Below, piece by piece: positions 25,038 through 35,621 of a DNA stretch of 64,000 bases. The notes below the pieces were generated by a model, which worked only from the letters and a program-made list of their open reading frames with translations, ran no database searches and was not told where the DNA came from. The DNA is from Capsaspora owczarzaki ATCC 30864 (taxonomy: Eukaryota; Opisthokonta; Filasterea): the NCBI RefSeq assembly GCF_000151315.2, contig NW_011887294.1, forward strand, positions 1,942,460 to 2,006,459, in the 5' to 3' direction. Numbering within the stretch: the first letter of the stretch is position 1; every line of letters starts with the position of its first letter. The position numbers were made by a program, and so were the translations under genes.

Positions 25038-27824
25038 TCACGGCAACACACACTCACAAGGGTCCTTGTTGCACATTGGGCACGCCAGACAACACTGCAG
25101 AACGAATTGAACCTCGAGGGGAAACTCGACGGGGGTACCAGTCAGGCGGATTGCCTGACGCAAATCAACAGCAGCAATCGCTCCGAGCTGAGGCCATCGC
25201 AAAATGGACTGTGATGTCCTTTCAAGCACAGCATCATCAAAACCAAGTGACGGAGCCAGCCGTTGCAACTGAGCGAGTGAAAATCGAGCATTGGTGGTGT
25301 ACGAGACATTTCTGGCCCGCAATTGTAGAACTTCTTGGACAAGCCGGGCATTTGCTGCTCTCAAGTCTTCTTGTGGCGCCGCCGCGGGGTTCCCGGAACA
25401 AACTGCATCGACCTGGTCGATTGTGAGGAACTTGAGGTCGTCGTCCGAAACCAAGCTGTTGACGCTCGGCGCGTTTTCGTCGTTGCCTTGAAGGAGCAGG
25501 ATGCAAGAAAAAGGGGCAGCGGAAGCACATGCACGATTCCACGCGTTGATTCGCTGCACCAGCTGGTCGGAGAAACGTCCTAGCGTGTACACGCAGCGCA
25601 CCCATCGAGCGTCGCGGCGCACCCCGCTGCTGACCTCCTCGCGGAAGAGTGGAGCGAACGCGGCCCGGTCTGGGCGAACCGATCCACGTAAAGCGGTCCG
25701 ATGGAAACTGGATCGAGTGGCACTGTCGCGAGCAGCATAGATCCAACCAGGCGTAACCGAAGCATCACCACCATTGGCTGTACCGCTCTTGCACTGAATG
25801 GCGAGTATGCTATTCGAATCATACGTTTGACCGGGAACAATGATATCGGGGCCAAAAGGTTGTGGGAGAGTATGCAACACATGGTTTGAGGCGCGGATTT
25901 CGTCGACGGTGGTCGCGGACAGTGGAGAAGCGACGGCTGTCGAGGCGGTGAGTATGATCCGGGACACGGCGCCAGGAAGAGCATACCCTCGAGGAAGGAG
26001 TTCTTTGACAGCCTCGAACATCAGAACTTCTCGAGCGCCAGCGAGCACCACTTGGCGAACAAAATGCCAAGCGACCTTCAACTCGGTCCTTTCACCAAGA
26101 GAAGTGGGAGCGCGATCGATCAGAGTAGTAAAGTCCTCACACTGCAAGGCGGCGTCGCCTTCCTCTAGAAGAGTTTGGAAAGTCAAAGGCTCAGCGCGCA
26201 AGTTGTATGAAGATTGATCAGAGCCAAAGAAGAGGACACCGACAGACAGCATGTCGGCAAGCTGAGGCGCGGTGAATGGCAGCACGCCGTTGGATAAACG
26301 AGCGCACAGATACATTTGACGAACGTTGGCTGCGATGCTTGTGGGCACGAAAGGGCTCGGTGTTTGTGTGTGCTTGCGCCAGTCAGTACGGACCCGATCG
26401 CGCACCTGAGAAGAGACCGAAGTTGCAGCCTTTCTGGCAGTCTCACGAATCATTGCGACCATCTCCTCGGTGTTGTTGGCGTTCTTCACATGATCAAGGA
26501 AGACGTCTAAGAAGGTCATGAAGAAAAAGTGCGGACGGCCTTGAAGCGGGGTAAGTGCCGCGAGACAGACATCACGTTCTTGGCTCGCATGGCTCGGAAC
26601 GGGAATGCCGTCAAAGTACAGACCGAGAAAATCAAGCATGTCGCTGGGTCGCATGGCGTGGAATTCGCGCCATTTGAACAGCTGCGAGTTGAGCGGGCTG
26701 ATCGAGTTACCAAGGCGAAGATCGTCGTGCAACCAGAGGTGTGTGCCGGCATACACAGCGCCAACAGCGCGCGTGGCTACTTCAGAGAGAACGAGACGGA
26801 TGGCGTAGTAGAGATCAGATGGTTGCTGCTTGTTGGTGTCAGGAGAGCTTGAACTGGGTGACAGCTCGTACAATCGGTGCTTGTGCGAACCGTTCTTGAG
26901 CTCGTCCATGTGAAACCACAAACCTGGACAGATATCTTTGGCAGCATTGAGCTCGTCCATGAAGAGGATCAGTGGCGCTTGGCTGCCATCAACGCCGAGC
27001 CGAGAGATGCGTTCGCGGAGCTTGGTTTCTAAAGCGAGCATGGCCGTCTGGGTGTTGCCTGAAAAGTTTGGCGAAAGTCGCGCTGCGAGCCGCTCAGAAA
27101 CTCGCGTGCTGAGTCGGTCGAGCGGAAAGCCATTTTCAAGAATTGCAACCCAGAGTCGACGCTGTTCCTCGATAGTCGCCGGCTCGCAAGCTTCATCGGC
27201 CTCGATCAAGATATCGTAGTAGCTGCATACAAACTCGCGGACGAGATCAAGAGCAAGCTTGGCGGTGGGGATGTCGCATGCCGCCGCGCCATCCTGCCTG
27301 ACACGCTCGATCAGACGAGTGTGCAATGATACCAGCTCATCGCGCAACTTGCTAACAGGTGGGAGAAGTGCGCCTACGCGAGTATCGGCAAGGCGGATGT
27401 AGACAACATGAGCCTGATTGGTGAGGGCTGGCGAGAAGGCCATCTTGGTTTTGCCGGCGCCCGACGTGTCGACGCAACCAAAAACGCGAGACTTCGTCAT
27501 GTTGGTCATCGTGTGGTTGATAGCTGTCAGAACAGTCTCGCAGAAAGTTCGGGAAGGTGCACCGAGAGAGTCGAACGAGCAAAGAAAGGAAAACCCTTTC
27601 AAGCCAGGGTGAAAGGCCTTCTTGAGTAGAGGCCCATACAGTGAGCGCTGCCGATCCAAAGTCGAGCCCTCCAACATCCCCTTGTAGGTTTTGCGACATT
27701 GAGCTTGAAACTCCTCGCGGGAAACGGCTGAAAGGGAAGAACCAAAAAATCAATCAGAACAATATTTCGTCATACTGCTGAGAAAAGTCAAACTCCTCGC
27801 GCTCTTTTGACACCCAGTGCCCAT
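25038..27824 (-). CDS. Crinkler/RHS-type P-loop NTPase with PD-(D/E/Q)xK nuclease domain
   Basis: Two exons (27824-27776, 27727-25038) give 912 residues; the 48-nt intron is GT-AG and phase-consistent. Residues about 104-111 are a Walker A loop (TSGAGKTK) and about 269-275 a Walker B strand (LILFMDE). From about residue 570 the pattern changes to a restriction-endonuclease fold: an upstream Glu in VLMFEAVKEL, GPDIIVP, then ILAIQCKS, i.e. a D-(n)-QxK active site near residues 644-663. NTPase followed by REase-fold nuclease is the layout of the Crinkler-RHS family, which includes oomycete/fungal effectors and trypanosome RHS proteins and is thought to derive from transposon nucleases. The C-terminal 18 residues are Cys-rich (CLACPMC, CEC). 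The gene looks whole. There is no secretion signal, so action on foreign organisms is not supported; a role in genome or element conflict is inference. Confidence 0.7.
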
Positions 27825-32532: not shown

Positions 32533-33944
32533 ATGAACCCATTGGGCACACCGGGCGGAGTCGTCAGTCCGCGGAACGAGCGGGCCTTCGACCTGCTGCG
32601 GGAGGCTAGACAGGCCAAGGACGCCGACTCTCCTCGCTTTTTCAAGGCCGCCGTGCTGAAAACCTACTTTACACCATGTGCTGACATCAGTGGACCAGGT
32701 GGCGCGGGAGCCAAGGAGACGAAACCGTCTATCAGGCAGCTGGCGGCGATTTTCGACGTTCCGCGATCTACTGTCGGCAAATGGATCGCGCATCACCGCC
32801 ATCAAGCCGATCTCTTCGCCCGTTCTACCCTNNNNNNNNNNNNNNNNNNNNNNNNNNNNNNNNNNNNNNNNNNNNNNNNNNNNNNNNNNNNNNNNNNNNN
32901 NNNNNNNNNNNNNNNNNNNNNNNNNNNNNNNNNNNNNNNNNNNNNNNNCGTTGCCCTCCCAGACCCGAGACAATCGAACTCTTCATGCGCATGTCTCAAG
33001 CTCCACGACCAGATGGAAAGCCTCGCCGCAAATTCGGTCCCAACGGCCCGAGCGAGTCGTTTTTGGAGCGGTTTTTTCGCCGAGTTTTCCGACGAACTCC
33101 GCTGGATCACTGCACACTCGATCGAAACCATTCGTACGGCCGCGAGGAACGAGGAAACCCTCAGAAGCTTCTTTGAGCGCCTGCAGGAGCTTTGCGACAA
33201 GTCTGGAGGGAAGCTGTGGGCCGAGCCTAGGCGGATTTTCAACTTTGACGAGTCGGAAATTTCGGCCCCCAAGAAACAGGACAAAGTGGTTGCCGCAACA
33301 AGCCAGAAGACTGTGTCTAGTGCATCCGGGCGGACAAAGTCCATGGGCAGACACATTACCGGCCTGTTCACGGTGGCTGCCGACGGGACAACGCTGCCAC
33401 CGTGAAACAAATGGCCGCCGCCAAACCCAAGCGCCCCGACATTCGACACGCCCGCGCGTTTGCCGCCGCGAAAGCAGCAGCTGCGGCACCGGCTTTTCAA
33501 TCGGTTGCGACGATGGCGGTTGAGCAGGACGACTCTGACGACGAATGCGAAGAGGACGGCATTCCGCCGTCGCCAATGCAGGTGACTTCTGCCGCTCCAG
33601 CGCGCTCCAGGAAGAGAATCTATGAAAGAGACTCTGACGACGAGGCCGCTCCATCATTTGAAACAGCCCAGAGTGGCGGGTCGGACGAGAATGTGACCTA
33701 TTCACTGTCGTCAAGATCTCTCGAGCGGCTGAAGGAGCCCCGTCTTGCTACTCGCAGCTCATCGCGGCTCATTTTGTCTCCAGGTGTGACACTCAGTCGT
33801 GCCAACACAATTGGCGTGAGCAGCTGGCTGACAAATGACATGGCGGCGATGCAGCTTGTGTCAACTGAGGGAAATGTGTCGTCCACGCCGAAAACCGATC
33901 GCCGGAAGCGACTCGCGCTATCTGACCTCTCCAATTCGAACTAA
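32533..33944 (+). pseudogene. pogo-like transposase pseudogene
   Basis: The first frame opens at the ATG at 32533. It has a psq/pogo-type helix-turn-helix (SIRQLAAIFDVPRSTVGKWI, residues about 66-85), then runs into an N gap. After the gap, the family-like block FGPNGPSESFLERFFRR is in a different frame from the downstream SIETIRTAARN block, so there is a frameshift near 33080-33100. The first catalytic Asp region is clear (IFNFDESEISAPKKQDKVV), followed by GRHITGLFTVAADGTTLPP. There the copy is joined directly to the tail (KQMAAAKPKRPD) in another frame, with a TGA at 33403-33405. The second and third acidic catalytic residues lie in the deleted part. The tail then runs open to TAA at 33942-33944. 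Two frame breaks plus the deletion make this non-functional. Confidence 0.85.
32832..32948. other. Assembly gap (Ns) inside pogo copy B
   Basis: A run of 117 Ns interrupts the transposase frame. As with the gap at the window start, it falls in a repeated element. Confidence 0.95.
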
Positions 33945-34364
33945 ATGTGTTAAATGTATGACTTTATGTGCAATTTTATGTATGTTATTGTTGTCGGGTT
34001 GATTAAACGACGATAATTCTTTGTCCCGATTCGAACCCGCGCACGCTCCCGGCCATAAGTACCCACAACATGACCCTATCATCCACCAACGCGGACAAGA
34101 TCGGTTTTCTTTGCATCTTCGCTGCATGTCCGGTGTCGGAGACGGGCTGGAAGGTGCCGGGAGTGTTGCGGAGGTTGTCCCTCCATCTACCGGACACGAT
34201 TTTTCGCGCCCAGCCAAAGGTCAATGCAAAGTCAAAATTTCATATTGCTCCGACCGCCTCCATTTTTTGCACATCGTCTATATTAATAATGTTGAACAAG
34301 AATATGAAGAGAGCCAGATGCAGGATGGTCACCAGTTTCTGTCCGGTAGAAGGAGGGTTCTCTC

Positions 34365-35621
34365 TAACAGTCCCCATTTCGTTTGTTTGTGTATCAAACA
34401 AACTCCCGTTCAAACAAACAAACAAACAAACAAACAAAAAAAAAAAACAAACAAACAAACAAAAACAAAACAAAACAAAACAAAACAAACAAAAAAAAAA
34501 AAAAAAAAATCAAGTGTTGCATGTGCGCTACGCGATGGTCATCTTGCCATTTCCAACAATTCGACAAGTCTTCTTTTTTTTTTTTTGGTTGGAAGGAAAA
34601 CAGCAATTCTCACTCGGGTATCCGTCCAAATCACCAAAACAAGGCACAAAAGCCGCTTTTGGAACCGGTTTTCGCATTGAATGGCTGTGTTTGGGAAGCT
34701 CAACACCAAATTTAGCCACTCGCTCCCTTTTTTGATTTCGACACACGCCTCCTCGCTGTCTCTGTCCTTTGCTTCCTCCTTCTCAGCTTGCACTGATGGA
34801 CAGTGACCAATACATCCTCATCAACCCTTTGGAAGCTGTCGTCCTGTCGTTTTGGGGGCTTTGTGGTCTTGTGGTTTTGTGGGAGAGGAATGGTTTTTGG
34901 TTTTGCCTCGCAACGAACAGTGTTCTCTATTCGCCATGGTGCAGCATTGTTCTTTTGTCGAGTATGCCTCTTGCTATTTTATTGATTTTATTTTTTCGTA
35001 TGTTATTTTTAGCTTTAATTTTGATTTTAGGTCAAAAGAACACTATTTGGGCGGTTTTAAATTCGCATTGAAAAGATCATTTTGACCGTTTTTCACACTT
35101 GGTTGCCACATGCCTGTGTTCACTCGGGCTCGCTGCTGGACTCGCCTCCGCCTCCAGACAATCACCTCCTGCGTCCACAGCGAATTCTATGAGCGACAGG
35201 AGTGGAGACAGTGTGCTCGCTAGCGCGTACGCGGTGACAGAATGATGGGTTTGAGTTTCGCATCGGTTTGAACTGCTGCTTTCTCGTCCGCTCTTCCTGC
35301 CTGGCTCGCTGTCCAACAACCTCTCCTCCGGTGCTATTGTCTTGAAAGCGCTCAGTGTTCTATTTTACCATCCACGTCAATCCGCCCTATAAAAGCCACA
35401 CGTCGCAACAATGCGAAAGCCCAGTCATTTTTTTTTTTTTGATTTGTTGTTTTCCCACCGTTAAAAGTCAAAAAACAAACCCCAACAAACAACACAAAAA
35501 CCGCCTTTTGTTCGCGTCGTTTGTTATCGATACAACGACCCCTTGACCTACCATCTTTCACTGAACAAAAACAAAAAGCAAGCACAGACGTGCAACAAAT
35601 CCCAACTTTGGCATTCCGACA
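34365..35621. other. Intergenic region upstream of the receptor kinase
   Basis: About 1.25 kb. It begins with (CAAA)n and poly-A tracts (about 34410-34510) just outside the transposon end, then AT-rich sequence and T runs. No gene is found. It presumably holds the promoter of the receptor kinase. Confidence 0.5.

Follow-up and report, generated by a model that had tools for sequence, protein, structure and literature searches.

A proposed Crinkler/RHS-like NTPase with a putative nuclease domain and its paralogues in Capsaspora owczarzaki

The gene reported here, located on the minus strand (25038..27824) of a 64,000-nucleotide stretch of the Capsaspora owczarzaki ATCC 30864 genome (contig NW_011887294.1; the stretch as a whole is referred to as the window), is reasoned to be Crinkler/RHS-like by its predicted architecture, whereby kinship to the Crinklers is plausible. 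In the reading which we hold with moderate confidence, its product would be a large, lineage-specific, cytosolic or nuclear, headerless protein that combines an N-terminal P-loop NTPase with a C-terminal PD-(D/E)xK nuclease-like domain and acts inside the cell against invading DNA or mobile elements. Gene, motifs and motif order were directly observed, as was the conservation of the motifs over four copies in the genome, with two losses in the copy named L002.

Gene model and conserved motifs

A two-exon model on the minus strand reproduced both the coordinates and the length (25038..27824, 912 residues) that the initial annotation had given for the gene. Within this interval the plus strand is closed by many stops, and on the minus strand 903 codons can be read before a stop occurs. 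The single-exon form is an 879-residue open reading frame which runs from an ATG at 27677 to the stop at 25038. Excision of a predicted 48-nt GT-AG intron (GTATGA...CTTCCCTTTCAG, 27728..27775) joins a predicted first exon of 49 nt (27776..27824), the frame of which is open once the intron is removed, in frame to the predicted exon 2 (27727-25038), yielding exactly 912 residues. The 3' end of this intron (TTTCAG) is matched in position by a CAG in the closest paralogue L002, as compared by eye; exon 1 of the 912-residue form is nevertheless to be taken as a model.

The earlier description of TSGAGKTK, LILFMDE and then D...QxK within one protein was found to be correct, as all three motifs are present in this order and recur in the paralogues. 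The Walker A motif TSGAGKTK (27444..27467, minus strand, as for all features below) is invariant in its S, G, G, K and T and reads (D/Q)xSGxGKT in all four copies, whereby the first glycine of the classical GxxxxGK[ST] is replaced throughout, by D in the window protein and L002 and by Q in L003 and L004. The Walker B motif LILFMDE (26952..26972) possesses its aspartate in four and its glutamate in three of the four copies, the latter being N in L002. Thus, at the level of motifs, the P-loop NTPase feature of the Crinkler/RHS class is present (Walker A in 4/4, Walker B D in 4/4 and E in 3/4). Downstream of these, the strongly conserved block GRPHFFFMTF (26511..26540), of which G, R, P and three F are invariant and which has GRP-x-x-FF in common in all copies, is a possible sensor or arginine motif.

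A motif pattern that required the classical GxxxxGK[ST] failed to recover the window protein because of the replaced first glycine, and a second, loosened three-motif pattern was set after the protein had been seen. This second pattern (Walker A, Walker B and D...QxK in order) matched the window protein and none of 20000 composition shuffles, and among 96 open frames of at least 250 residues, coming from the window and 12 flanking stretches, it matched one, which is the gene under study; L002, L003 and L004 are absent from this count, their frames being cut by the ends of the flanking stretches. The motif positions are kept across the copies, including the two which are only 25-26% identical to the window protein, with the exceptions named for L002, and this conservation may be regarded as stronger evidence than a fitted pattern.

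The putative PD-(D/E)xK (restriction-endonuclease-like) domain was placed at 25422..26126 based on motifs and a weak model. It contains a candidate helix-1 glutamate (E532 of 879, 26082..26084), invariant in all four copies, and a D...QCK signature (D611, Q628 and K630 of 879, 25788..25847), of which D and Q are found in four copies and K in three, the lysine being replaced by M in L002 (QCM). The full E...D...QxK set is complete in 3/4 copies, in the expected order and at similar spacing, and just 23 of 263 alignment columns are invariant, those of E, D and Q included. AlphaFold was used for the whole protein and for residues 518-752, with four sequences each, and gave mean pLDDT values of 37.1 and 38.1, respectively, which are not reliable. 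As both models failed in this respect, support for the nuclease fold comes from the motifs and from weak secondary structure. In the low-confidence model of residues 518-752 (pLDDT 38.1) a helix is followed by a strand hairpin and then by strand-helix-strand, whereby D starts the hairpin and the Q of QxK ends it, and the whole-protein model is similar; this topology, weak and unreliable as it is, would suit a PD-(D/E)xK core. Residues 420-525, which lie between the NTPase and nuclease-like parts, where a helix-turn-helix would be expected in the class, are mostly helical in the low-confidence whole-protein model and matched no family among the Pfam profiles. At its C-terminus the window protein carries an extension missing from the three paralogues, the cysteine-rich end of which (CLACPMCNKDPCECVLP, 25041..25091) could be a small zinc-binding tail.

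The N-terminus of the window protein is not hydrophobic, the highest mean hydropathy of any 11-residue stretch that begins within residues 1-40 being 0.74, and a hydropathy scan hence agrees with the earlier statement that no secretion signal is visible. Somewhat more hydrophobic stretches are present in L003 (1.71, beginning at residue 8) and L004 (1.86, beginning at residue 38), whereby it is uncertain where these paralogues start.

Paralogues and their divergence

A search of the genome (27456641 bases, 29 contigs) with the window protein identified at least four copies, answering the proposed paralogue count: the window gene itself (contig C3, 903 codons), L002 (C4, 817), L003 (C5, 923) and L004 (C4, 835), all of them with uninterrupted frames free of internal stops. 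In the alignment, L002 is 63% identical to the window protein, and L003 and L004 are 25-26% identical. Searching with L004 returned the same genes except L002, together with one extra place at chance level (E 0.47), and searching with L003 recovered L002 at E 7e-5. The four-copy NTPase-nuclease-like family is real, probably functional and of low copy number, and the window copy looks intact.

The closest paralogue L002 (L002:1456-3864) has a long open frame and has kept its P-loop, and lacks the Walker B glutamate, the nuclease lysine and the C-terminal extension. The absence of the first two of these argues against enzymatic function of L002. Comparison of the window gene with L002 by a Nei-Gojobori type calculation (purpose-written script) gave a dN/dS of 0.595 over 779 codons. 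The NTPase part is under purifying constraint, with values of 0.37 (residues 60-250) and 0.49 (250-420); residues 1-60 gave 0.41, values of 1.17 and 0.89 were obtained for residues 420-525 and for the nuclease-like part (525-760), respectively, and 0.34 for residues 760-879, the latter from only 43 codons. Two dead genes are argued against by the constrained NTPase part and the intact frames. The genome thus contains one protein in two versions, of which the first looks active and the second, L002, looks dead.

Within residues 525-760, dS towards L002 is only 0.22, and three 100-base bins (25401..25700) are 88, 95 and 94% identical to L002, as compared with a range of 65-88% for the other 27 bins, 22 of which lie at 74-84%. 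Owing to this local rise in identity and the low dS, gene conversion between the two genes at 25700-25401 is likely.

Genomic surroundings and searches for relatives

The statement that the gene lies next to the largest gene-free block of the window was borne out by a crude coding scan, which small exons could escape and in which no gap exceeds the adjoining one of 3.5 kb (27.75-31.29 kb). The codon score was applied to gaps and neighbours only; it was trained on seven frames including the window gene, L003 and L004 and hence is no independent proof of coding. Thirty neighbour frames, picked by length, codon score or by eye from the window and the stretches around the other copies, were compared with Pfam, whereby 15 gave matches over the curated cut-off, seven gave sub-cut-off matches only and eight gave none. 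The matches comprise a chaperonin, RING, kinases, a methionyl-type tRNA synthetase, ERO1, BEACH, GATA, CLU, an aminotransferase, an amino-acid transporter, a MYRF-like protein and RasGEF_N, and no transposon protein was among the Pfam matches of these 30 frames. The MYRF-like gene (L018:2500-6288; NDT80/PhoG, S74 chaperone and MYRF-ICA domains) is located close to the L002 copy, and a further stretch about 9 kb from L002 (L020) consists of N in 9841 of its 9900 bases. In the genome two Runt-domain matches exceeded the cut-off, with none in 14 controls, a comparison of little weight as the controls named are bacteria and archaea; Runt genes are known from Capsaspora, and these matches, the MYRF-like gene and the types of transposon present agree with it as the host. 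Within the window, a direct repeat of 971 bases was observed (619-1589 and 33396-34366), with 94.4% identity between two same-strand copies separated by 32.8 kb. As N runs (1-181 and 32832-32948) end about 440 bases before each repeat copy, the repeat may stem from a recent duplication or from an assembly artefact.

The proposed location of the paralogues near transposons did not find support; an association with mobile elements is reported for some members of the class and is not obligatory. Genome-wide, at least 35 reverse transcriptase, 61 DDE_3 and 11 MULE matches were found, the search being made up of these three protein types. The nearest of them lies 372 kb from the window gene, 105 kb from L002, 464 kb from L004 and 103 kb from L003, hence none within 100 kb of any copy. 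Among 20000 random draws, 49% had a mean distance not larger than the observed mean and 76% a minimum not larger than the observed minimum; since the distances match random draws, the idea of a transposon hot spot was rejected for these three types. Of the 14 transposon match rows located on contigs C3-C5, 11 entered this test and three were dropped as they adjoin a row of the same element; the length of C3 was taken as a lower bound.

The proposed profile search for CR-type domains likewise gave no support, as neither the Ubl header PF20147, which is the one of Phytophthora while various helical headers occur elsewhere, nor the RHSP profile PF07999 matched and nothing in Pfam exceeded chance. 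In detail, profiles from Pfam, NCBIfam, PADLOC and PHROGs gave no match beyond chance for the window protein family (best E 0.05), the PADLOC models of prokaryotic antiviral defence matched none of the four copies at E up to 10, and the same was found for PF20147 and for PF07999. Genome searches gave no match for PF20147, for which no control genome matched either, so that absence from the genome does not follow, and none for PF07999, this search being one without positive control. The PDB, searched by sequence, returned no match better than E 0.083, from molecules without bearing on the protein. In collections in which only fairly close relatives are detectable, none of 54 + 23 pattern matches among viral contigs and none of 50 + 87 among prokaryotic genome contigs was confirmed, and phages gave no relative; plasmids gave none in one search and in the other a single match at E = 3, which was ignored. 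The literature searched contained no report of this gene as a Crinkler or retrotransposon hot spot protein of Capsaspora.

Proposed function and relation to known systems

Nuclease fold, ATP dependence, target and biological role are proposed here as follows. Most likely, the NTPase would sense or remodel a nucleic-acid target, ATP binding or hydrolysis would license cutting by the nuclease domain, and the protein would probably be used inside the cell, against intruding DNA or mobile elements. This proposal draws on motifs kept across paralogues of 25-63% identity, four open frames of 817-923 codons, the constrained NTPase, the weak REase-like topology, the N-terminus without a hydrophobic stretch and the published layout of the class. 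It is opposed by the lack of any profile or PDB match beyond chance, by unusable structures, by dN/dS values of 0.89-1.17 in residues 420-760 and by the lack of a nearby transposon protein of the three types searched, and weighing both sides we consider it about evenly balanced. A rather unlikely alternative assumes a P-loop NTPase with a non-nuclease C-terminal part, the QxK being a coincidence inside another conserved domain. This would agree with AlphaFold models that give no confident fold, with an L002 frame still open after loss of the lysine and with an invariant AW directly after the invariant helix-1 E, as AW at this place is not known to be required by the restriction-endonuclease core. 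However, coincidence would have to account for E, D, Q and K in expected order and at similar spacing in three of four copies, for E, D and Q being among so few invariant columns, and for D and Q at the two ends of the hairpin predicted with low confidence.

The description of the host as a 'free-living-type' protist was half right, as Capsaspora is reported as a snail-associated predator to which schistosomes and snail embryonic cells can fall victim (PMC12422584). It could hence be imagined that Capsaspora brings the nuclease into its prey by an unconventional route. The first descriptions of Crinklers were of delivered effectors, even though, according to a review, true signal peptides were ruled out for them by Zhang et al. 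(PMC5289972). The somewhat hydrophobic N-terminal region of L003 would fit such delivery, yet the window protein possesses neither a signal-like stretch nor a Ubl header, and the four copies found, a lower bound, do not amount to a large diversified repertoire, which renders delivery improbable. Hardly more probable is that the gene, devoid of present function, was left by a mobile element and is domesticated or in decay: while L002 lacks the C-terminal extension as well as two catalytic residues and dN/dS is 0.89-1.17 over residues 420-760, four uninterrupted frames, the constrained NTPase part, and nameable neighbours that are ordinary genes, with none of the searched transposon types nearby, argue against it.

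Beyond the preferred reading of an internal Crinkler/RHS-like nuclease, a two-part DNA-conflict system may be conceived, a long shot in our estimate, in which the complete NTPase-nuclease is accompanied by the 63%-identical L002, conversion acts at the nuclease end, and L002 restrains or steers the active protein by joining its oligomer. If true, this would be an internal pair of active and inactive nucleases on the animal side of the opisthokonts. According to one report, genes of Capsaspora have been disrupted by homologous recombination, and components of non-homologous end joining are lacking (PMC9170242). For the latter reason a home-made DNA-cutting protein may be costly and its control interesting. 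If the protein is a CR-type nuclease, Capsaspora, a relative of animals, would allow testing an internal role outside a plant pathogen.

Among known systems, prokaryotic NTPase/wHTH/REase proteins of the ATPase_2 plus DUF234 type show a comparable domain order. They differ from the family in that neither domain gave a Pfam match in any of the four copies at E up to 10, and no prokaryotic relative of the window protein was confirmed. As the review recounts (PMC5289972), Crinklers and RHS proteins were brought together by Zhang et al. 2016 under the name of CR proteins, and trypanosome RHSP (PF07999) thereby shares the class with the Crinklers; in contrast to RHSP, none of the four Capsaspora copies matches PF07999 and no reverse transcriptase match lies within 100 kb. 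The same review puts the share of NTPase plus REase at a little over a quarter of all CR C-termini and describes the majority of those in Phytophthora as NTPase, HTH and REase; toxicity is believed to reside in the REase, under regulation by the NTPase (PMC5289972). Unlike such proteins, the window protein lacks a Ubl header, matches no profile and has no transposon protein of the searched types nearby; its copies are few and its middle HTH is a candidate. The order from NTPase to QxK in the initially assigned Crinkler-RHS membership is carried by conserved motifs; the membership itself found no backing in a profile match, a confident fold, a Ubl header or an RHSP match. In common with CR proteins, known from free-living eukaryotes as well (PMC5289972), the window protein shows a P-loop NTPase followed by a putative restriction-endonuclease-like nuclease and no visible signal peptide, and the family probably is a new, divergent member of the CR-type NTPase-nucleases.
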